A stretch of DNA of 64,000 bases from Rhodobacter capsulatus. Its GTDB lineage: Bacteria > Pseudomonadota > Alphaproteobacteria > Rhodobacterales > Rhodobacteraceae. Of this stretch, positions 52,102 to 63,512 are shown piece after piece. Location: contig NZ_QKZO01000004.1 of NCBI RefSeq assembly GCF_003254295.1, forward strand, positions 124,001 through 188,000, written 5' to 3'. The notes below the pieces were generated by a model. That model had not been told where the DNA came from. It saw only the letters and a list, made by a program, of their open reading frames with translations, and did no database searches. Position 1 is the first letter of the stretch; every line of letters starts with the position of its first letter. A program made the position numbers and the translations under genes.

Positions 52102-54444
52102 TCAGGCGCTGCGGCGCGACACGAACAGCGCCGGTCGGGGCTCCTCGGCCTCAGGCGCGCGCGGCGCCCAGCTCTCCTCGCGCTGCAACTGGAAGGTCGC
52201 CACGGCCTCGGCCAGCGCCGTCGCCTCGCCCTGCAACGAGCGCACCGCGGCATTGGTCTCCTCGAAGACGGCGGCGTTTTGCTGCGTCGTGCGGTCCAGT
52301 TCCGTCGTCGCATTCGAGATCTCGGTGATCCCGGTCGCGGTTTCCTGCGAGGCGGTGACGATCTCGGCGATCTTTTGCGCCACATCCTCGACCCCGGCAA
52401 CGATCTCGCGCAGCGCCTGACCGGAATCATGCACCAGCCCGACGCCCTGGTTGACGTTGTTCGACGCGGTCTCGATCAGCCGGGCGATCTCGCGGGCGGC
52501 TTCGGAGGAGCGCTGCGCCAGCGCCCGCACCTCGGAGGCGACGACGGCAAAGCCGCGCCCGGCATCGCCCGCCCGTGCCGCCTCGACCCCCGCATTCAGC
52601 GCCAGAAGGTTGGTCTGGAAGGCGATGTCGTCGATCACCTGCAGGATGCGCCCGATCGCCTCGGACGAGGCCTTGATCTCGTCCATCGCCGAAACGGCCC
52701 GCGACACCACCTGATGCCCGGCCCCGGCCCGGTTCGAGATCTCGGTCACCGCGCTGCGGGCGACCTGCGCCGAACTGGCGGCCGAACGGACGGTGGCCGA
52801 CATCTGTTCCAGCGCCGAAGCGGTCTGTTCCAGCATCGCGGCATTGCGTTCCGACCGCCGCGCCAGGTCGTCGGCGGCCCCGGCGATCTCGCGCGCCGAA
52901 GTATCGACGGCGGTGGCGGACACCGAAATGTCGCCCAGCGTGCCGGTCAGGCTTTCGGTGGTGCGGTTCATCGTCTCCGCGATCTCGGCGAAGATGCCGT
53001 GGAAGCGGGAGGGCATGCGATGGGTCAGGTCGCGCTCGGCCAGCCGTTCCAGCGCGACGCGCACGGCGCTGAGCCCGTCATCCGCCGCCTCGCCGATCCG
53101 GTTCATCCCGGCGCAGAGATCGACGAAGATGCCGGTCTTGTCATCGGTGCGCAGCCGGCGCGAGAAATCGCCCTCGGCGCAGGCGGCCACCACGGCGGCG
53201 ATTTCCGCGGCGGCGGCATGTTCGCGCGCCTGGGCGGCGGCGGCGGCGGCACGTTCTTCCTCGGCCTGGCGGGCCCGTTCCGCCATCTCGGCGCGTTCCT
53301 GTGCGGCGGCCGCGATCCGGGCCTGGGCTTCCCGCTCGGTGGCGGCGATGCTTTCCGCCTCGAGCCGCTGTCGTTCGAGGATCGTGGTCCGGAAGCTTTC
53401 AAGCGCCGCCCCGATCGAGCGCACTTCGCTGACCCGGGTCTCGGGCACGGTGATCTCGGTCCGCCCCTCGGCCAGTTCCTGCACCGCCGTCGTCACCGCG
53501 CGCAGCGGCGTCACCGTGGCGCGGAACAGCCGCACCGCCGAGACCCCGAGCACCAGCATCCCGATCCCGCCCGCCAGCAACATCAGGATATAGCCGCGCA
53601 TCTTCGCCGCATCGGTCGCCGCCGTCATCCGCAGGACATCGGCTTCAAGGTCCTGGCGCAGGGCGGAAAGGGCCAGCGGCATGGCGTCATAGCTCTCGTC
53701 GCAGGCGCGCAGGATGCCGTCGATCTGCAGCGCGAGATCGGCATATTGATGGAAGGCGTCCTGATACTCGGTCAGCTTCGCCAGGGTCCGTTCGCGGTGC
53801 TGCGCCGAAACGAACATCGTTTCGGGATAGGATTTGAAGGTCTCGATCTCCTTGTCGAGCTTTTCGACATATTTCGGATCAAGACGCATGATGAAGTCTT
53901 TTTCGGACCGGCGCATCTTCAGCAAGGTCAGCTCGACCTTCGGCAGGGCGAGCGCGCCCACCATCTTCTCGGCGGCATGCACCGAAGCGCGCAGCTGCCC
54001 TTCCAGCCCGGAATCGGCATCAAGCCCGAGCACCACCCGGGTATCGGCAAAGAGGGCGAAATTCTCCTCGTAGCTGTCGAGCAGATCCTGCAGCGCACCG
54101 GCCCTGCTGGCGCTGTCGGCAAGGCCGAGGGCGGCTTCGTCGGCCACCAGCTCCTTGAGCTGCGTCGAGGCGTCCAGGATTTGCCGCGCGTGATCGCCGA
54201 TTCGCGTTTCCTTGCGGTCGATGCGGAACTTCGCTTCGATGTCGCGGGCCGAGGCCAGGGTGCGCTCCAGCTTGGCCAGTTCGCCGTTCAGATGCGCAAT
54301 GTCCAGGCTTTGCTGTTCGGCCCTGCGGTCGACGAGCGCTGAATAGAAGACGGTGGCCAAGACCGCCGTCGTGCAGACGACGATGACGAGGCCCATGCGG
54401 ACCAGGTAGGAGAGAAAGCTGCGGGATGTACTTGCGCGTGCCAT
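52102..54444 (-). CDS. Methyl-accepting chemotaxis protein
   Basis: The 780-residue receptor has an N-terminal membrane helix (about residues 10-37), a periplasmic helical sensor of about 250 residues, a second helix ([17 protein letters not shown]), a HAMP region, and the cytoplasmic signalling hairpin with the highly conserved tip [21 protein letters not shown] and [14 protein letters not shown]. It ends in an acidic stretch without the CheR-docking pentapeptide. Signal type is unknown. It lies about 50 bases downstream of a second receptor gene on the same strand but with its own ribosome site (CGGAGC). Confidence 0.9.
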
Positions 54445-54615
54445 GCGGTTGCTCCGAAAGATCGCTCCCGCAAAATCACGCAAAGGAATTAAGGGCAGGT
54501 GAAGCTGCGCGGAGATTGGTAAACTTGTATCTTTGTCAGATCCGGGGATCGGGCGATGCGGCAACCGCCCCCCGGCCCTGTGGCCGGGGGGCGGTTCCGC
54601 GCAACCGGGCGGCGG

Positions 54616-56553
54616 TCAGCCCGCCATCCGCTGGTCCCAGGCCGCGCCGCCTGCGCGGCCGGCGATGCGGAACACGGCGCTGAACTCCTTGAGCGTGCGC
54701 GCCTCGTGCAAAAGACCCTGGGTCGCGGCGGAATTTTCCTCGAACATCGCGGCATTGTGCTGCGTCACCTGATCGAGCTGGTTCACCGCCGCTGTCACCT
54801 CGGAGATGCCGGAGGACTGTTCGGCCGCGGCGCTGGCGATCCCGTCCAGAAGCCCGTCCAGCTCGGTCACCAGCGTCTCGATCTCGCCCAGCGCGGTGTC
54901 CGAGCGCGCCGCCAGATCCACCCCCGCGGCAACCTGTCGCGACGAGGTGTCGATCAAGGCGGCGATCTCGCGCGCGGCTTCCGACGAGCGTTGCGCCAGC
55001 GCCCGCACCTCGGAGGCGACGACGGCAAAGCCACGGCCCGTTTCGCCTGCCCGCGCCGCCTCGACCCCGGCGTTCAGCGCCAGAAGATTGGTCTGAAACG
55101 CGATGTCGTCGATCACATGGGTGATGCGCGAGATCTTGTCCGAACTTTGCGCGATGTCGTCCATCGCCCGTTGCGTCTGTCGCACCACCTCGCGGCCGGT
55201 GGCGGTGGTGGCCCGGGTGCGGTTCACCGCCTGCGCCGCAGAGCGCGCCCCCTCGACCGATTGCGCGACCGAGGCCGCCATCTCGTTCATCGCCGCCGCC
55301 GTCTCTTCGAGCGAGGCGGCCTGCGTTTCGGTACGCCGACCCAGCTCCATCGAGGCCGAGCCAAGCTGGCCCGCTTCGGTCTCGACCACGTCGGTCGTCT
55401 GCACGATCGAGGCGATCAGCCCCGCGACCTTGTCGATGGCGCCGTTGAAATCATGGCGCAACCCTTCGTAGGCGGGCGGGAAGGTCTCGGTGATCCGGGC
55501 GGTCAGATCGCCCGCCGAGAGCGCCTGCAGGCCCTGCGCCAGCGCCGAGACGATATTCATCTGCTCGCGCATCTGCGCTTCGCGTTCGGCCTCGGTGCGC
55601 TGGCGTTCCGCCTCGCGCTCGCTCTGGCGGGCGGCTTCGGCGCGTTGCAATTCCGCCTCGGCCTCCTGTTCGCGGCGCCGCAGCGCCTCTTCGCGGTCGC
55701 GGGCCTGGGCCTCGGCCTTGGCGATCTCGGCCTCCTGGGCGCGGCGTTGCCGCTCCAGCTCCGCCTTTTCCGCAAGCGAGGCCCGGAACACTTCCAGCGC
55801 CCGCGCCATCTCGCCCACTTCGCCGCGCGCGGTGGTGCAGGGGACCGGGCTCTCGGTATCGCCGCCGGTCATCTGCCGCATCCGGTCATTCACCGCGCCG
55901 AAGGGGCCGGTGACCGTGCGCGCCAGCGCCGTCGCCGCCCCGCCCAACGCCACCAGCGCCACCGCCATCGCGATCAGCGAGGTATTGCGCAGATGCGCCA
56001 GCGCCGCGGTGATGTCGGTGACATAAGAGCCGGTGCCGACGATCCAGCCCCAGGGCGCGAAATCGCGCACGAAGCCGATCTTTTCCTCGGGCGTGTCGCT
56101 GTCGGGCTTCTTGAAATGGTAATGCACCTCGCCGCTGCCCGCGGTCTCGGCGACCTTGATCATCTCCACGAAGATCTTCTTGCCGTAGGGATCGGTGAAG
56201 CCGATCTGCGACTTGCCGATCCACTCGGGCATCGTCGGATGGACCAGCATCACCGCTTCGTGGTCGAGCACGTAGAAATAGCCGGAATTGTCGAACCGCA
56301 GCGCAGTCAGGCGCCGGGCGCCCTCGGCGCGGGCCTGGTCGGGGGAAAGCGTGCCCGCCTGCACCTGTGCTTCCAGATCGATCAGGACACCGATGGCGGT
56401 GTCGGTGACGTCGCTGAGATGCTGTTCGCGCATCTCATAAGCGTTCGAGACCGCAAAACGCAAAAGCGTCTCGGACAGGATGATCAGCGAAAGGGCGGCA
56501 AGGGCCACGATCGCGTAGATGCGGGCGGAGATACCGAAGAATTTGTTTTTCAT
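54616..56553 (-). CDS. Methyl-accepting chemotaxis protein with a single Cache domain
   Basis: The 645-residue receptor has one N-terminal membrane helix, a periplasmic single-Cache domain (SGYFYVLDHEAVMLVHPTMPEWIGKS through GWIVGTGSYVTDI), a second helix, a HAMP segment, and a signalling tip [21 protein letters not shown] nearly identical to that of the next gene. Cache receptors often bind small organic acids or amino acids. The ATG at 56553 follows AAGGCC. It is the last annotated gene before a 1.05-kb stretch without genes. Confidence 0.9.
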   Translation of the reverse strand: MKNKFFGISARIYAIVALAALSLIILSETLLRFAVSNAYEMREQHLSDVTDTAIGVLIDLEAQVQAGTLSPDQARAEGARRLTALRFDNSGYFYVLDHEAVMLVHPTMPEWIGKSQIGFTDPYGKKIFVEMIKVAETAGSGEVHYHFKKPDSDTPEEKIGFVRDFAPWGWIVGTGSYVTDITAALAHLRNTSLIAMAVALVALGGAATALARTVTGPFGAVNDRMRQMTGGDTESPVPCTTARGEVGEMARALEVFRASLAEKAELERQRRAQEAEIAKAEAQARDREEALRRREQEAEAELQRAEAARQSEREAERQRTEAEREAQMREQMNIVSALAQGLQALSAGDLTARITETFPPAYEGLRHDFNGAIDKVAGLIASIVQTTDVVETEAGQLGSASMELGRRTETQAASLEETAAAMNEMAASVAQSVEGARSAAQAVNRTRATTATGREVVRQTQRAMDDIAQSSDKISRITHVIDDIAFQTNLLALNAGVEAARAGETGRGFAVVASEVRALAQRSSEAAREIAALIDTSSRQVAAGVDLAARSDTALGEIETLVTELDGLLDGIASAAAEQSSGISEVTAAVNQLDQVTQHNAAMFEENSAATQGLLHEARTLKEFSAVFRIAGRAGGAAWDQRMAG

Positions 56554-57605
56554 GGGGCCTTGAGGTCTGGGAAGGTGAAAGCCTGGCCAGGTACGGTACG
56601 CGACAAGACAGGAAACGGGCCGAGTGGAGCCCCCAATCTGGCAGCCATCCGTCAATTTTCTCTTACAGTTCTGGATTTGTTTTAGCTTGAGCGATACCCG
56701 CTGCGGCTGTGGGCGCTCGCCCCCGAGCCCCGCCTTCGAGCCCCGCCCCCGAGCGCCGATTCCGAAGCCCTGCAGCAGGCGGCAAAGGCCCGAAAGCGGG
56801 CCGAGAATCCCGCTGAAATTCGGGATGGTAAGCAGGTTTCCATTTTTTCGATCGACTGGCATGTCTCTGATCGCGATGTCTTTTGCGGGCTGTCATGGCG
56901 ACGACGCAAAACGTTGGCAGGCTCGGAACCGGTCGCGGTTTCATCTGTGAAAATCGCCTTTTGCGGGGTCCGTCATGGCAATTTTCGCGTTGGCATAAAG
57001 GGCCGATGCGGCCATGATTTGGCGGCATTTTCGATCCGGCCTGGTATGGCCTGCCTGTGCGGGGCGTTCGTCCGGCGGTATGGGGCGTGGATATTGTCCG
57101 ATATGGCCTGTCGATGTCGGATTTTGGCGCAGGACTGCGGCGAGCTGGCCACTTTGTCTTTGGATGTGAGGATTTCGCTGCAAATCAGGGTCAGCTTTTA
57201 TTCCCCAATTCGGCGCGCGGCCGGGGCGGGCGGTTGCCGTCCCGGAAAGCCTCTGGAAAGCATGTTGAAAAGCTTTCGGGCGCAGCGGGCAATTCGTTTG
57301 ACCCGCCTGCCGGGTTGGCGCAATTTTGGCCCATCCCAAGGGAAGGGTGGAGGATGGAGGGGTTCGGGCCGCAGAGGGCCGCAGATCCGGGAAGATGACG
57401 ACGGGGTCAGGGTCGGACACATGGCCCCCGAACATCGCGTCGAGACCGGGAGAGATCCCGCCCGACCACGGAACCGCGGCGATCGTGCCTGACCTCTCCA
57501 TGACCCTCGGCCGGACCTCGGCGCCCCGGTTCCGCGTCCCGTGTCCTGCCGATTCTGTTTCTTCGACCCGCGGGGCCCCGCCCGCTGCTGCCGCCGAGTT
57601 CCCCG
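56554..57605. other. 1.05-kb region without a supported gene
   Basis: No open frame in these bases has a ribosome site plus a recognisable domain. It includes a short direct repeat of CCCGAGCCCCGCC type near 56727-56757 and stretches with lower GC content (56640-56700, 56930-57010). The region must contain the promoter of the Cache receptor (minus) and the control region of the HoxH-like gene (plus), but no clear site was placed. Confidence 0.55.
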
Positions 57606-59108
57606 ATGCTTGCCTTCGAGACTGCCCCCCCCGTCCGCCTGCCGCCGATCCCGGTCACATCGGCACTCCGCCCGGCCTGCCCCGGCCCGGAGCGCGAGGG
57701 CCAGGGCAGGGTGACGATCCGCCTTGATGCGCGCGGACGGATGCGGCAGGTGCAGCTGCAGCTTCTGGACCATTGCGGCGTCGAGACCTTCCTTGAGGGC
57801 CGCGCGATCGCCGAGATCCCCGAGGCGGTGCAGCGGCTGTGCGGCCTGTGTCCGGTCAGCCATCATCTGGCCGCGGTCAAGGCGATGGACCGGATCGCGG
57901 GCTATGACCGGCTGACCCCCACGGCGGAAAAGCTGCGGCGGCTGATGCAATACGGCCAGATCGTGCAAAGCCATGCGGTGCAGCTTTATCATCTGGCCGA
58001 GCCGGACCTGCTTCTGGGCTTCGACAGCGAGCGCGCCCGGCGCGGTCTGGTCGATGTCGCGCGCGCCTTTCCGCAGCTGGCGACCGAGGGGGTGCTGATG
58101 CGCCGCTTCGGGCAGGAGGTGGTGCGGGCGATCACCGGCGGGCGGTTGCGCGGCGCCGGGGCTGTGCCCGGGGGGATGCGGCGCCGTCTGGCGCGCGAGG
58201 CCCGCGATCAGCTGCGCGCCGATGTCGATCAGGTGATCGACTGGGCGGTGGGGGCGTTGCGGGTGCTGGAACGGCTGCATGGCACCAATCCGGCGTTTTA
58301 CGACGATTTTGGCGCGGTCGACGGCAACCTGCTGGCGCTGGTCGGGCCCTCTGGCGCGGTGGATTTCTACGATGGCCTTCTGCGGGCCCGCGATGCCCGG
58401 GGGGCGACGCTCTTCGACGCCATCCCCGCCGCGGCCTATCGCGGGGTTCTGGCCGAACCCTCCGGCCCGGGCGGTCCGCATCTGCGCGCGCTGGGCCCCG
58501 AGATGGGCTGGTATCGCGTCGGACCGCTGGCGCGTTTGCAGGTCTGCGACCTTCTGACCTCCGAGAAGGCCGAGACCGAACGGCAGCGGCTTCTCGCCCC
58601 CGCGGACGGGAAGCCGTTGCAGGGGGCGGTGTTCCATCACGGCGCCCGGCTGGTCGAACTGCTGCATGCGGCCGAGCTGATCCGCGACCTTCTGGACGAT
58701 CCCGAGCTGCTGGGCGCCGATCTGATGGCCGAGCGCGGCGCCCCGCAGCGCGCGGCCGTCGGCGTGATCGAGGCGCCGCGCGGCACGCTGTTGCAAAGCT
58801 ACGAGGTCGACGAGGCCGGACGGGTCCGGCGCTGCACGCTGCTTTTGTCCACCCGCAACAACAGCCGGGCGATGAATGCGGCGCTGCAGGGGGTGGCGGC
58901 GCGCTATTGCGACGGCAGCCGGGTCACCGAAGGTCTGCTGGCCCATATCGAGGTGGCGATCCGCGCCTTTGACCCCTGCCTGTCCTGTGCCGCCCATGCG
59001 CTGGGGCAGATGCCGCTGTCGGTCGAGCTGATCGATGCCGCGGGGGCGGTCGTTTCGGGGCTGCGCCGGGGCGCGGACGGGGGGGTGTCATGCTGCGTTC
59101 GATCCTAG
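57606..59108 (+). CDS. [NiFe]-hydrogenase large subunit, HoxH-like (group 3 type), without an adjacent small subunit
   Basis: The 500-residue protein has both nickel-ligand motifs: CGLCPVSHH at residues 79-87 and DPCLSCAAH at 456-464, so all four cysteines (79, 82, 458, 461) are present. The motifs REGQG near residue 30, RRFGQEVVRAITGGR and GPLARLQVCD match HoxH of NAD-reducing hydrogenases. After His464 a 36-residue tail remains, as in subunits that need C-terminal cleavage. A maturation protease gene overlaps its end by 19 bases. No hoxF, hoxU or hoxY is within 1 kb upstream. The start codon is uncertain because its ribosome site is weak. Confidence 0.85.
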   Translation: MLAFETAPPVRLPPIPVTSALRPACPGPEREGQGRVTIRLDARGRMRQVQLQLLDHCGVETFLEGRAIAEIPEAVQRLCGLCPVSHHLAAVKAMDRIAGYDRLTPTAEKLRRLMQYGQIVQSHAVQLYHLAEPDLLLGFDSERARRGLVDVARAFPQLATEGVLMRRFGQEVVRAITGGRLRGAGAVPGGMRRRLAREARDQLRADVDQVIDWAVGALRVLERLHGTNPAFYDDFGAVDGNLLALVGPSGAVDFYDGLLRARDARGATLFDAIPAAAYRGVLAEPSGPGGPHLRALGPEMGWYRVGPLARLQVCDLLTSEKAETERQRLLAPADGKPLQGAVFHHGARLVELLHAAELIRDLLDDPELLGADLMAERGAPQRAAVGVIEAPRGTLLQSYEVDEAGRVRRCTLLLSTRNNSRAMNAALQGVAARYCDGSRVTEGLLAHIEVAIRAFDPCLSCAAHALGQMPLSVELIDAAGAVVSGLRRGADGGVSCCVRS

Positions 59109-59635
59109 GACCGCGTCTGGTCGTCTTTGCCTGGGGCAATGAAAGCCGCGGCGATGACGCGCTGGGGCCGCGGCTGGCCGCGCGCATCGCCCGGGCGGGC
59201 TGGAGCCACATCACTCTGATCGAGGATGCGCAGCTGCAGGTTGAACATGCGCTGGATCTGGTCGGTCAGGATCTGGCGCTGTTCATCGATGCGGGCATGG
59301 GCACACCCGCGCCCTTCGCTTTTGTGCAGGCGATGCCGCGCCGGTTTCTGGGGCCCTCGACCAGCCTTGGCATCGGCCCCGAGGGGGTTCTGGAAGCCTA
59401 TCGCCAGGTCATGCATGACGAGCCGCCGCCCGCCTTCGTGCTGTGCCTGCGCGGCGAAAGCTTCGCGCTGGAGGAAGGTCTCAGCGCCACGGCCCGGGCG
59501 CATCTGGCGCAGGCCTGGGGTTTTCTGATCCCGCTGCTCTCCTGGCCCGGGATCGACCGCTGGCAGGCGGCGCTGACCGGCCCGGCCGAGGATCTGTTCC
59601 CCGCCAGCGACGATCGCCGCTCGGCCGCCGAGTGA
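59090..59635 (+). CDS. Hydrogenase maturation protease (HoxW/HyaD-like)
   Basis: The 181-residue protein begins VVFAWGNESRGDDALGPRLAARI, with the GN..RGDD nickel-binding start of the HyaD/HoxW family, followed by the second acidic residue (FIDAG) and a histidine-rich later segment. Such proteases remove the C-terminal tail of a large subunit after nickel insertion, and each usually serves one subunit. Overlap with the HoxH-like gene by 19 bases implies that gene is its target. HupV further down lacks a tail and needs none. Confidence 0.85.
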   Translation: MLRSILGPRLVVFAWGNESRGDDALGPRLAARIARAGWSHITLIEDAQLQVEHALDLVGQDLALFIDAGMGTPAPFAFVQAMPRRFLGPSTSLGIGPEGVLEAYRQVMHDEPPPAFVLCLRGESFALEEGLSATARAHLAQAWGFLIPLLSWPGIDRWQAALTGPAEDLFPASDDRRSAAE

Positions 59636-59663: not shown

Positions 59664-59691
59664 TTGCGCGGGGCGTCAAGCCCGATATGCT
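59664..59691 (+). promoter_or_regulatory. Possible promoter before hupT
   Basis: TTGCGC (59664-59669) and TATGCT (59686-59691) are separated by 16 bases and lie just before the hupT start at 59720. The spacing is a little short and the gene may instead be transcribed from upstream. Confidence 0.3.
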
Positions 59692-59719
59692 GACGCAGCC
59701 CCCCCACCGGAGCCGCGCC

Positions 59720-61090
59720 ATGTCCCGACTGCCTGTCAAGGACAGTCCGCCCCGTTTCGATCCGGCCGCTCTGGCCGGTCTGCTGCCCGGTCACGCGGCG
59801 GGCGATGCGGTCTGGGTCGATGTGCTGTCGGCCGTTGATCGCACCTATGCGGAACTTGTCGATTATCAGGAACGGCTGGAGCGGCAGAACCACGAGCTGG
59901 AAGACCTGCGCTCCTATCTCGGTTCGATCTTCGCCTCGGTCTCGGATGCGCTGATCGTCGTCTCGCGCGCGGGGGAGGTGCTGGGCACTTCGGCCTCGGT
60001 CGAGGCACTGACCGGGCAGGGGACGGGGGTCTGGCAGGGGCGGCCGCTCTCGGCGCTGTTCGATCCGGCCTCGGGGCCGCGGCTCGAACGCGTGCTGGCC
60101 GAGGCGGCGAACCGCCGTGCCCCGGTCACCGTCGAGGCAGCGCTGATCGGCCCGGACGGCCCGGCGCCGCTGGAACTCTCGGTCAGCCCGCGGCTGGACG
60201 AGCGGGATCGCATCATCGGCTATGTGCTGACCGGCCGTCCGCTGGGGGAATTGCGCCAGGCCTATTCCGAGCTCGAACGCTCGCATGCGGCGCTGATCGC
60301 GGCACAGGCGCAGCTGGTGCGCAATGAAAAGCTGGCCTCGCTTGGCCGTCTGCTGGCGGGGGTCGCGCATGAGCTGAACAACCCGATTTCCTTCGTTTAC
60401 GCCAATGCCCATGCGATGGAACGCTATGCCGCGAAATTCGAGACCTATTTCGCCGCGGTGCAGGCGGGGGCCACGCGCGCGGAGCTGGTGGCGCTGCGCG
60501 AGCGGCTGAAACTGGAACGCGAGGTCGGCAATCTGCGCACCGCGATTGATGGCGCCCGCGACGGGGCCGAGCGGGTCCGCGCCATCGTCGAGGATCTGCG
60601 TCGGCTCTCCTCGGAGGGCACCGGTGCGCAGGTGGTCTTCGATCTGGTCGCCACTGCCGGGGTGGCGGCGGATTGGGTCCGGCGCGGCTCGAAAACCGCG
60701 GTGGCGGTCGAGTTCACCGGCCTTGCCGCGCTCGAGGTGATCGGGCGGCCGGGTCATATTCAGCAGGTGGTGATGAATCTGGTGCAAAACGCCCTTGATG
60801 CGATGGGCGATTTTCAGGACGGCCGCATCCGCATCGAGGCGCGGATCGCGGCCGGGCGGGGCGAGCTGGTCGTCTCCGACACCGGGCCGGGCGTGGCCGA
60901 GGATGTGGCGCCGACGATTTTCGACCCGTTCTTCACCACCAAGGATGTCGGCAAGGGCACCGGGCTGGGCCTGTCGATCAGCGCCAAGATCGTCGAGGAA
61001 CACGGCGGGCGGCTGCGGCTTTTGCCCGAAAGCCCGCTCGGCGGCGCCTGTTTCGGCTTCGATCTGGCCTTGGCGGGGGCACCGGCATGA
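59720..61090 (+). CDS. hupT: H2-responsive histidine kinase HupT
   Basis: HupT phosphorylates HupR; in the R. capsulatus hup system, H2 detected by HupUV lowers this activity and so allows hydrogenase synthesis. The 456-residue protein has a PAS-like N-terminal part (SYLGSIFASVSDALIVVSRAGEVLGTSASVEALTGQG), the phospho-acceptor His217 in AGVAHELNNPISF, and an ATPase domain with NLVQNALDA, DTGPGVAED and GTGLGLSIS. There is no membrane segment, so it is cytoplasmic. It overlaps hupU by four bases (ATGA). HupR is not in the window. Confidence 0.96.
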   Translation: MSRLPVKDSPPRFDPAALAGLLPGHAAGDAVWVDVLSAVDRTYAELVDYQERLERQNHELEDLRSYLGSIFASVSDALIVVSRAGEVLGTSASVEALTGQGTGVWQGRPLSALFDPASGPRLERVLAEAANRRAPVTVEAALIGPDGPAPLELSVSPRLDERDRIIGYVLTGRPLGELRQAYSELERSHAALIAAQAQLVRNEKLASLGRLLAGVAHELNNPISFVYANAHAMERYAAKFETYFAAVQAGATRAELVALRERLKLEREVGNLRTAIDGARDGAERVRAIVEDLRRLSSEGTGAQVVFDLVATAGVAADWVRRGSKTAVAVEFTGLAALEVIGRPGHIQQVVMNLVQNALDAMGDFQDGRIRIEARIAAGRGELVVSDTGPGVAEDVAPTIFDPFFTTKDVGKGTGLGLSISAKIVEEHGGRLRLLPESPLGGACFGFDLALAGAPA

Positions 61091-62085
61091 AGGTTCTGTG
61101 GTTGCAGGCCTCGGGCTGCGGCGGCTGCACGATGTCGGCGCTTTGTGCCGAGGCCCCCGATCTGATCGACACTTTGGCCACGGCGGGGGTGGAGTTCCTG
61201 TGGCATCCGGCGCTCAGCCTCGCCACCGGCGGCGAGGTGAGGCAGCTTTTGCAGGCGATCGAGGCCGGAGAGATCGCGCTGGATTGTCTGGCCATCGAGG
61301 GCGCGATCGCCCGCGGGCCGATGGGCACGGGGCGGTTTCAGATGCTCTCGGGCACCGGGCGCGCGATGCTCGACTGGGTGCGGGCGCTGGCGCCGCTGGC
61401 GGGACATGTGGTGGCGGTGGGGTCTTGTGCCGCTTATGGCGGCGTGACCTCGGCCGGGGGGAACCCCTCGGATGCGGTCGGGCTGGTCTATGAGGGCGCG
61501 CATCCGGGCGGCGTGCTGGCGCCCGGGTTCCGCGGCCGCTCTGGCCTGCCCGTCGTCAATATCGCGGGCTGTCCGACCCATCCGGGCTGGGTCACCGAGA
61601 CGCTGATGCTGCTTGCGCAGCGCAAACTGTCCGAGGCCGATCTGGATGCGCTGGGGCGTCCGCTGTTCTATGCGCAACATCTGGTGCATCACGGCTGCCC
61701 GCGCAACGAATTCTATGAATACAAGGCCTCGGCGCTGCAGCTGTCCGATCTGGGCTGCATGATGGAACATCTGGGCTGCGTCGGCACGCAGGCCGTGGGC
61801 GATTGCAACATCCGCCCCTGGAACGGCGAGGGGTCCTGCACGCGGGGCGGCTATCCCTGCATCGCCTGCACCGCGCCCGAGTTCGAGGAACCCCGCCACC
61901 CTTTCACCGAAACCCCGAAGGTCGCGGGCATTCCGGTGGGGCTTCCGGCCGACATGCCGAAGGCCTGGTTCATGGCGCTGGCCTCGCTGTCGAAAGCCGC
62001 CACGCCCGCGCGGATCGCGCAAAACGCCACCGCCCCGCGCCTTGCCGTGCCGCCGACGATCCGCAAACCCGGGGGGCGGCGATGA
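61087..62085 (+). CDS. hupU: Regulatory [NiFe]-hydrogenase small subunit HupU
   Basis: HupU is the Fe-S subunit of the cytoplasmic H2 sensor. The 332-residue protein begins VLWLQASGCGGCTMSA with no Tat signal, as expected for the sensor form. Cluster ligands are in SGCGGC, VGSCAAYGG, IAGCPTHPGW, HHGCPRNEF and the C-terminal C-rich run (EHLGCVGTQAVGDCNIRPW through GSCTRGGYPCIACTAPEF). It overlaps both neighbours by 3-4 bases, so HupT, HupU and HupV are made together. Confidence 0.97.
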   Translation: MKVLWLQASGCGGCTMSALCAEAPDLIDTLATAGVEFLWHPALSLATGGEVRQLLQAIEAGEIALDCLAIEGAIARGPMGTGRFQMLSGTGRAMLDWVRALAPLAGHVVAVGSCAAYGGVTSAGGNPSDAVGLVYEGAHPGGVLAPGFRGRSGLPVVNIAGCPTHPGWVTETLMLLAQRKLSEADLDALGRPLFYAQHLVHHGCPRNEFYEYKASALQLSDLGCMMEHLGCVGTQAVGDCNIRPWNGEGSCTRGGYPCIACTAPEFEEPRHPFTETPKVAGIPVGLPADMPKAWFMALASLSKAATPARIAQNATAPRLAVPPTIRKPGGRR

Positions 62086-63512
62086 GCGACAGGCCGCGGC
62101 TGGTCGTCGGCCCGTTCAACCGGGTCGAGGGCGATCTGGAAGTGCATCTCGATCTGGCCGGGGGGCGGGTGGCCGCGGCCCGGGTCAACAGCCCGCTGTA
62201 CCGCGGCTTCGAGCGCATGCTGGAGGGGCGCGACCCCAGCGACGCGCTGACGCTGACGCCGCGGATCTGCGGCATCTGCTCGATCTCGCAATCGGCTGCC
62301 GCCGCGCGGGCGCTGGGCGCGGCGATGGGGCTTTCGCCGACCGACCAGGGCGCGCGGCTGGCCGCGCTCATTCATGCGGTCGAGAATGTCTCGGACCATC
62401 TGGTGCATTTCAACCTGTTCTTCATGCCCGATTTCACCCGGCCCTGTTACGCCGCCCGGCCGTGGTATCCGCGCGCCGTCGCGCGCTTTGCCGCGATCGA
62501 GGGGCAGGCGGCCCGGGCGGCGATTGCGGCGCGTTCGGGGCTGATGCACATTCTGGGGCTGGTGGCGGGGAAATGGCCGCATACATTGGCGCTGCAACCG
62601 GGCGGTGTCACCCGCACGCCCGGCCCGCGCGAGGTGCTGCGCATTCAGACCGAGCTGCGGATGTTCCGCAAGCATCTGGAAACGCAGGTTTTCGGCGGGC
62701 GGCTTGAAGATTTCGCCGCGCTTGCCACGGTCGCCGATCTGATGCGCTGGGATCGCGGCGATGCCGGGCTTTTTGTGGAGATCGCCGCCGATCTGGACCT
62801 CGACCGGCTTGGCCGCGGCGCCGGGCGCTATCTGAGTTTCGGCGCCTATCCGCTGGCCGAGGGGCATGGCTTCGCCCCCGGTCTTTGGCAGGCGGGCGCG
62901 GTCACGGCGCCCGACATGGCGACGATTGCCGAAGACCTCAGCCATGCCTGGATGCTGGGCGGCACGGCGCATCCCTTTGACGGCGTCACCCGCCCCGACG
63001 AGACGATGCGCGCGGGCGCCTACAGCTGGTGCAAGGCGCCGCGGCTGGAGGGCGCGCCGGTCGAGGTGGGGGCGCTGGCGCGGCAGCTGATCGACGGTCA
63101 TCCGCTGGCGGTTCAGTTGGCGGGCGGCGGCGTGCTGGCGCGGGTCGCCGGGCGGCTGCTGGAGCTGGCGCGGACGCAGTTTCTGATGGAGGGCTGGGCG
63201 GCGGCGCTCGATCCCGGCGCGGTCTTCATGGTGCAGGGCCGAATGCCCGAGGCGGGCGCGGGCGCCGGGCTCGTCGAGGCGGCGCGGGGAAGTCTGGGCC
63301 ATTGGCTGCGCATCGAGGGCGGCAAGATCGCGTCTTACCAGATCATCGCGCCGACGACCTGGAACTTTTCCCCCCGCGATGCGCGGGGCGTGCCCGGGCC
63401 TTTGGAGGCGGCGCTGGTCGGCGCCCCGGTCGCGCCCGGCGAGGACAGTCCGGTTTCGGTGCAGCATGTCGTGCGCAGTTTCGATCCCTGCATGGTCTGC
63501 ACCGTGCATTGA
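62082..63512 (+). CDS. hupV: Regulatory [NiFe]-hydrogenase large subunit HupV
   Basis: HupV holds the nickel-iron site of the H2 sensor. The 476-residue protein has the proximal motif RICGICSISQSAAAAR, where Ser-Gln replaces the usual Ser-His of energy hydrogenases, and ends exactly at DPCMVCTVH with no C-terminal tail. Both traits are known for regulatory hydrogenases, which mature without proteolysis. It overlaps hupU by four bases. A diverged ATATTTG-type element and the hypF start follow. Confidence 0.97.
   Translation: MSDRPRLVVGPFNRVEGDLEVHLDLAGGRVAAARVNSPLYRGFERMLEGRDPSDALTLTPRICGICSISQSAAAARALGAAMGLSPTDQGARLAALIHAVENVSDHLVHFNLFFMPDFTRPCYAARPWYPRAVARFAAIEGQAARAAIAARSGLMHILGLVAGKWPHTLALQPGGVTRTPGPREVLRIQTELRMFRKHLETQVFGGRLEDFAALATVADLMRWDRGDAGLFVEIAADLDLDRLGRGAGRYLSFGAYPLAEGHGFAPGLWQAGAVTAPDMATIAEDLSHAWMLGGTAHPFDGVTRPDETMRAGAYSWCKAPRLEGAPVEVGALARQLIDGHPLAVQLAGGGVLARVAGRLLELARTQFLMEGWAAALDPGAVFMVQGRMPEAGAGAGLVEAARGSLGHWLRIEGGKIASYQIIAPTTWNFSPRDARGVPGPLEAALVGAPVAPGEDSPVSVQHVVRSFDPCMVCTVH

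Follow-up and report, generated by a model that had tools for sequence, protein, structure and literature searches.

A HoxH-type [NiFe] large subunit without a small subunit, found with its HoxW-type protease beside the hupTUV genes of Rhodobacter capsulatus

In NuoD of complex I, the fold of a hydrogenase large subunit has survived the end of H2 catalysis; NuoD lost the nickel cysteines and kept its small subunit, NuoB. [NiFe] large subunits that lack a small subunit altogether have so far, to our knowledge, been either laboratory products or the divergent HoxV/HupK scaffolds. Here we analyse a 64,000-nucleotide stretch of the Rhodobacter capsulatus genome (NZ_QKZO01000004.1, positions 124,001 to 188,000 of the forward strand; hereafter the window) that encodes an orphan HoxH-type large subunit and an overlapping HoxW-type maturation protease directly before hupTUV. 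Like NuoD, this HoxH would be a large-subunit fold past H2 catalysis, with the difference that NuoD has given up the cysteines and held on to its partner. We observe descent from an NAD-reducing hydrogenase, loss of the partner subunits, sparing of the cofactor motifs and the C-terminal tail, constraint on the protease and, in published data, regulated transcripts.

The closest described system is the group 3d enzyme HoxFUYH (Cupriavidus necator; structure 5xf9), to which the locus is tied by direct descent. The window shares with it the four cysteines, the APRG and DPCLSC..H motifs, the tail and an adjacent HoxW, and differs in being without HoxF, HoxU and HoxY, in a degraded L0 motif, in a cut WSYMKF stretch and in a protease that has lost a metal ligand. 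HoxV/HupK scaffolds are likewise large-subunit-like proteins with no small subunit of their own, encoded within a hydrogenase gene cluster; HoxV bears Fe(CN)2CO and has neither nickel nor enzyme activity (PMC12134894). In one comparison, window HoxH and C. necator HoxV showed marginal kinship (24.6 bits, E 0.006, 95 residues), and by eye the latter has one cysteine per motif and no comparable tail, whereas the window protein has four cysteines, a tail and a protease. Judged by sequence, window HoxH is not a member of this class, which is its nearest working analogue. When isolated on their own, the C. necator subunits HoxC and HoxG retain a redox-active site and show slight H2 activation (PMC9886862). 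They too are large subunits without a small subunit, and they carry the cofactor; there the separation was made in the laboratory, whereas in the window it is evolutionary and we infer the cofactor. HupUV/HoxBC, encoded next to the locus, resembles it in using a NiFe site outside energy metabolism, but HupV has the small subunit HupU and no tail.

Descent from a hoxFUYHW operon and the missing partners

The hoxH gene (57606–59108, plus strand) encodes 500 residues that match Pfam PF00374 (NiFe large subunit) with 76.3 bits against a cut-off of 25.8, and its closest solved structure is an NAD-reducing hydrogenase large subunit (5xf9_D, E 7.5e-122). An earlier note, made from the letters of this DNA, had described a HoxH-like large subunit with four nickel cysteines, a 36-residue C-terminal tail and an overlapping protease, with no HoxF, HoxU or HoxY nearby and hupTUV following; all of this is borne out. 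The cysteines are C79, C82, C458 and C461, the tail comprises residues 465–500 (58998–59105, plus strand) after the cleavage histidine H464, and hoxW (59090–59635, plus strand, 181 residues) overlaps hoxH by 19 bases. The same note's HoxH-type motifs hold for the cofactor motifs and for APRG (residues 390–393, with arginine R392) and not for L0, which is degraded, and its HoxW/HyaD-like protease is present with a lost third metal ligand; both departures had escaped the note. The open reading frame of hoxW scores 45.7 bits against TIGR00072 (maturation protease), slightly below the cut-off of 47.45, and matches no Pfam family at E ≤ 0.001. The four Ni/Fe-ligand cysteines and the APRG arginine are invariant among six aligned Rhodobacter HoxH and also in the copy of an SB1003-like genome (G395), a label that rests on the agreement of its hoxH (834400–835908) with the coordinates of a published RegA peak. 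The nearest named locus is that of R. capsulatus SP108, at about 92–93% protein identity. Window HoxH and the HoxH of R. aestuarii, which is paired with a HoxY, fall in one clade with support of 100/100, and by its sequence window HoxH is a descendant of group 3d HoxH.

Comparison within the genus documents how the pair arose. hoxH is present in 7 of 18 Rhodobacter genomes, including the window's own. R. aestuarii (L059) has an intact hoxF-hoxU-hoxY-hoxH-hoxW series, with hoxH as the fourth gene and hupT next after it. Rhodobacter sp. TJ_12 (L058) has intact hoxH and hoxW preceded by a short stretch in which collinear remnants of hoxF, hoxU and hoxY survive at 81–83% DNA identity, and R. maris (L060) retains a piece of hoxY (47% identity over 51 residues, E 2.7e-5; DNA 79% over 75 bases). 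No hoxF, hoxU or hoxY trace was found in the window, SP108 or R. viridis, nor within 1.5 kb before hoxH in the SB1003-like genome (L040). Outside Rhodobacter, HoxY adjoins HoxH at all 12 close loci of the family and at 25 of 26 additional ones; the exception sits at a contig end. Upstream of hupT, seven other Rhodobacter have no match to hoxF, hoxU, hoxY or hoxW (E < 0.01), two of these loci showing just 1.5 kb and 0.5 kb of upstream sequence. With the operon intact in one relative and scarred in two, the deletion of hoxFUY is documented, and hoxH-hoxW is the remainder of a full hoxFUYHW operon formerly located ahead of hupTUV. The earlier note, which knew no described system of this form, had missed the complete operon that survives in R. 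aestuarii. In every visible loss, hoxH and hoxW were spared.

The number of losses depends on the tree consulted. In a tree of HupT, HupU and HupV, TJ_12 and R. aestuarii form a group (support 100) that R. maris joins (98), separate from the R. capsulatus/R. viridis group; R. aestuarii being still complete, three losses of hoxFUY follow from it. The HoxH trees instead stack the orphans above R. aestuarii. An approximately unbiased test on HoxH does not reject a grouping of TJ_12 with R. aestuarii (p 0.106) and rejects one of TJ_12, R. aestuarii and R. maris (p 0.006), a conflict that long branches and shared relaxation could cause. The safe statement is that hoxFUY was lost at least two times. 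A single origin of the orphan state is rejected.

Partner subunits were sought throughout the window's own genome, an assembly of 24 contigs with an estimated completeness of 100%. It encodes three PF00374 large subunits (window HoxH, HupV and HupL), and a search for the small-subunit family PF01058 at E ≤ 1 returned three proteins, namely HupU, HupS and a NuoB-length protein on contig 2 that shares a stretch with NuoF- and NuoG-like genes. HoxY of R. aestuarii, used as a query against the same genome, found only a 25-residue match, in NuoB. HoxF/HoxU-like genes (E ≤ 0.001) occur there only in the complex-I-like stretch of contig 2 and in one cluster on contig 1 which, named by its context, looks like an NAD-formate dehydrogenase. 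A distant partner, which the earlier note had entertained, finds no support here, and a distant HoxY is rejected by these searches.

Constraint on HoxH, its tail and HoxW

Selection was estimated as the ratio of nonsynonymous to synonymous change (dN/dS) from pairwise NG86 comparisons made with a custom script and given with bootstrap bounds; the post-loss status of the R. capsulatus-group and R. viridis sequences presumes a single loss in their ancestor. Among the window, SB1003-like and SP108 copies, hoxH has a dN/dS of 0.31–0.37 (bounds 0.20–0.56, the upper bounds being 0.47–0.56), and window against R. viridis gives 0.32 (0.25–0.41); without residues 1–70 the values are 0.24–0.31. The corresponding figure for the TJ_12/R. 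aestuarii pair is 0.11. For hoxW we obtained 0.08–0.12 within the R. capsulatus group (bounds 0.01–0.28, upper 0.21–0.28) and 0.19 to R. viridis, and for hupT, hupU and hupV 0.06–0.17 (hupU 0.06–0.13 in the R. capsulatus group). hoxH is therefore constrained, though less than its neighbours, and hoxW is constrained about as they are. All six orphan hoxH frames are open. In a neutral, substitution-only simulation, frames stayed open in 29 of 2000 copies at 0.49 changes per site and in 281 of 2000 at 0.12, so that among the closest three sequences open frames alone are weak evidence.

Changes in the protein are unevenly placed. As reference we took 160 alignment columns with an invariance of 97% or more across 38 paired HoxH of other genera (the 12 close loci L010–L021, 25 of the 26 loci L062–L087, and C. 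necator), leaving out L080, at a contig end, and the distant L088 and L089. Departures at these columns number 42 in the window, 45 in the SB1003-like copy, 43 in SP108 and 33 each in R. viridis and R. maris, hereafter the five older orphans; TJ_12, the sixth, departs at 10 and paired R. aestuarii, a closer control than the distant references, at 5. When each reference was left out in turn, 36 of the 38 departed at 0–6 columns. Measured from their common node in the HoxH tree, the branches are 0.035 for R. aestuarii, 0.15 for TJ_12 and 0.56–0.83 for the five older orphans.

With motif windows that were fixed after the alignment had been seen, the cofactor-motif columns of the five older orphans are changed at 0–2 of 36 positions against 31–43 of 124 others (Fisher p 0.0001–0.0097). 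The N-terminal part is changed at 9–14 of 25 columns in these five and at 1 of 25 in TJ_12, and the remaining columns at 22–29 of 99 in the older five. The L0 motif RVEGHG, whose R, E, G and H are kept in 38 of 38 paired references outside the genus, has become EREGQG (window), ETAGQG (SB1003-like copy) and LGDQG (R. maris); its glutamate persists in the window, SP108 and R. viridis, and in its place the SB1003-like copy has Ala and R. maris has Gly. The corresponding loop of C. necator HoxG bears the proton-gate residue Glu27 at the centre of the subunit interface (PMC9886862). Near residue 290, a WSYMKF stretch is reduced to GG in the R. capsulatus/R. viridis group, YMKF being deleted. Mapping the small-subunit-contact loops of HoxG onto HoxH (22% identity) was safe for the L0 loop only, and that loop alone was used; AlphaFold models of window and R. 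aestuarii HoxH, built from six alignment rows, had mean pLDDT values of 45.6 and 54.8, too low for the models to be relied on.

The tail is 35 of 36 residues identical between the window and R. viridis, while residues 29–464 differ at 95 of 436 aligned positions (Fisher p 0.004). Its DNA is not frozen, since synonymous divergence (dS) there is 0.35. Towards R. maris (62%) and R. aestuarii (71%) it has no special conservation.

Proteases of the HoxW family are thought to bind nickel through two acidic residues and one histidine (PMC12134894), the ligands in HybD being Glu16, Asp62 and His93 (PMC2670836). Of 28 aligned proteases, 25 have the histidine: 4 of 7 Rhodobacter HoxW, among them those of R. 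viridis and R. aestuarii, 19 of 19 HoxW from outside the genus (aligned from 19 of the 38 outside loci), and both HoxW and HoxM of C. necator. Leucine replaces it in the window (Leu93), SP108 and the SB1003-like genome. The window protease keeps the acidic residues D23 and D67 but, without the histidine, has an incomplete set of ligands.

Published data on R. capsulatus indicate that hoxH is not silent there; a silent and decaying gene was an outcome that the earlier note had named as refuting. A RegA chromatin immunoprecipitation peak at 833738–834931 was assigned to hoxH, and the accompanying transcript data list hoxH at 2.96 in one medium and N/A in the other, and hoxW at 2.05 in the other medium only, a minus sign denoting repression to judge by the other rows of the table (PMC5359404). 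hoxH is also reported to be under FnrL/RedB control, with hupU and hupT responding oppositely (PMC9603517). The published RegA motif (PMC5359404), allowed up to three mismatches, matches the window 16 times against 12.05 expected, which is uninformative.

Competing explanations for the retained pair

We propose that hoxH and hoxW are a hoxFUYHW remnant kept by selection, and that HoxH has been repurposed as a small-subunit-free [NiFe]-site protein with a role beside the Hup system; we give this explanation an even chance of being correct. After hoxF, hoxU and hoxY were deleted, hoxH and hoxW were retained; they still show purifying selection and, by the published data, redox control in R. capsulatus. 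Lacking a cognate small subunit to carry electrons off, and with a decayed L0 interface motif, HoxH would by its anatomy not act as an ordinary NAD-reducing hydrogenase. The four-cysteine site may still bind nickel or the whole NiFe(CN)2CO cofactor, the conserved tail and HoxW could hold nickel or cofactor in HoxH, and the protein may handle or sense either beside the Hup system, much as a scaffold derived from a large subunit would. In the R. capsulatus group, where leucine replaces its ligand histidine, HoxW might bind the tail without cutting it; a tail-retaining, nickel-loaded state can exist, since HoxH with a mutated tail is reported to show both a retained tail and nickel in the site (PMC12134894). 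Among the three readings offered by the earlier note, a nickel-site regulator fits best as far as it describes a nickel-site protein without ordinary hydrogenase function; the regulatory role itself we infer.

If this is so, one such large subunit has seemingly been kept by selection in a tractable phototroph. The passage from intact operon through scar to clean loss in one genus is a natural experiment that separates the features serving the small subunit from those serving the cofactor, and the purpose of 'Fe(CN)2CO-storage' proteins becomes testable from a second, independent origin.

In a narrower form of the proposal, rather unlikely and put forward tentatively, HoxH and HoxW make up a permanent non-enzymatic complex in which uncleaved or nickel-trapped HoxH is held by a protease that does not cut, as a store or sensor of nickel or cofactor for Hup. 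If true, a hydrogenase maturation intermediate has been turned by selection into an end product, from remnants arising repeatedly in one genus.

Several observations weigh against the repurposing that we favour. Whole-operon losses leave nothing visible, so that the sparing of hoxH and hoxW each time is a statement about survivors. Departures from invariant columns are not specific to orphans: left out in turn, the paired HoxH of the distant C. necator shows 31 departures in 170 columns and that of L087 shows 15 in 167, and evolutionary distance therefore also contributes to the counts. Loss of the L0 glutamate need not kill an enzyme, since its exchange for glutamine is reported as not essential in HynL of Thiocapsa roseopersicina (PMC3325256). 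The ligand loss in HoxW may mean that maturation is broken. The genome encodes a separate HupK-like scaffold gene, named by its match to HoxV. Finally, dN of hoxH in the R. capsulatus/R. viridis group is 1.4–3.6 times that of hupT, hupU or hupV, which fits slow decay.

Slow decay is the substance of the chief rival, a serious possibility that we nevertheless doubt, in which hoxH and hoxW are a relic of the loss of hoxFUY, useless or kept only by their position before hupTUV. The higher dN/dS of hoxH in the R. capsulatus group than in the TJ_12/R. aestuarii pair, the many changed invariant columns of the five older orphans, the degraded L0, the deleted YMKF and the missing histidine of HoxW all suit it. 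It accords poorly with the open frame of every orphan hoxH at a dN/dS well below 1, few neutral frames surviving at the larger simulated distance and more at the smaller, and with the selective sparing of the cofactor motifs and tail. Regulated expression (PMC5359404, PMC9603517) likewise argues against a relic, as does hoxW, which is constrained about like hupT where its histidine is lost, within the wide bounds given above.

Improbable in our assessment is a re-pairing of HoxH with a non-cognate small subunit, HupU or HupS (NuoB being less likely), giving an additional hydrogenase or sensor. No hydrogenase small subunits other than HupU and HupS are left in the genome, and hupU begins 2 kb downstream of the hoxH stop; for the substitution in HupUV that the earlier note had suggested we found no support beyond this neighbourhood. 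The part of HoxH most changed, in five of the six orphans, is the N-terminal one containing L0, the motif with the interface glutamate in HoxG (PMC9886862). hupU remains strongly constrained, and the opposite responses of hupU and hupT to FnrL and RedB (PMC9603517) also speak against a shared complex.

Very improbable is a minimal hydrogenase in which HoxH alone reacts with H2 and passes electrons to a soluble acceptor. Its cofactor motifs are kept and isolated HoxC and HoxG do activate H2 slightly (PMC9886862), but the L0 glutamate is gone from the SB1003-like copy and R. maris (if not from the window, SP108 or R. viridis), and no electron-transfer partner gene adjoins hoxH.

To the extent that the assembly is complete, an ordinary NAD-reducing hydrogenase whose remaining subunits lie in another place, the annotation given to R. 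capsulatus hoxH in PMC5359404 and PMC9603517, is refuted by the absence of HoxY from the genome and the confinement of HoxF/HoxU-like genes to complex-I-like and formate-dehydrogenase-like clusters. With hoxFUY absent, such an enzyme is very unlikely in R. capsulatus, and the published naming looks wrong. No description of the orphan hoxH of R. capsulatus was found in the literature searched, which did not cover the original hupTUV papers and is thus no proof of novelty.

Neighbouring genes and other hydrogenase clusters

Downstream, hupT (59687–61090, plus strand), a histidine kinase of the H2-sensing pathway, begins 51 bases after hoxW and is followed on the same strand by hupU (61087–62085), the small subunit of the regulatory hydrogenase, and hupV (62082–63512), the large subunit beside it.

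Beyond the set found in the window's genome, TJ_12 has one further protein of the small-subunit family (PF01058), without a match in the HoxY search. It has 150 residues and adjoins a large subunit of its own (362 residues) in what by eye is a membrane (group-4-like) hydrogenase cluster (L110, 2058–4607); this small subunit has no counterpart in the PF01058 list of the window's genome. A second complex-I-like cluster of R. aestuarii (L111, 434–3747; by eye) encodes a small-subunit-family protein of 229 residues together with a NuoD-like one that has no nickel cysteines, and a similar match occurs in G404:C89. Four Rhodobacter genomes without this hoxH (G046, G400, G405 and G409) carry an extra pair of hydrogenase large and small subunits at a second site.

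Upstream, the hox genes of R. aestuarii (L059, 2215–6263), TJ_12 (L058, 4591–8661) and R. maris (L060, 4872–8869) are immediately preceded by what by eye are a nikR-like gene and a NikMQO-type transport cluster. In the window, SP108 and R. viridis two chemoreceptor genes stand there instead. Those of the window (52102–54564 and 54616–56862, minus strand) encode methyl-accepting-chemotaxis-type proteins that are about 39% alike C-terminally, and both have matches in SP108, the SB1003-like genome and R. viridis.

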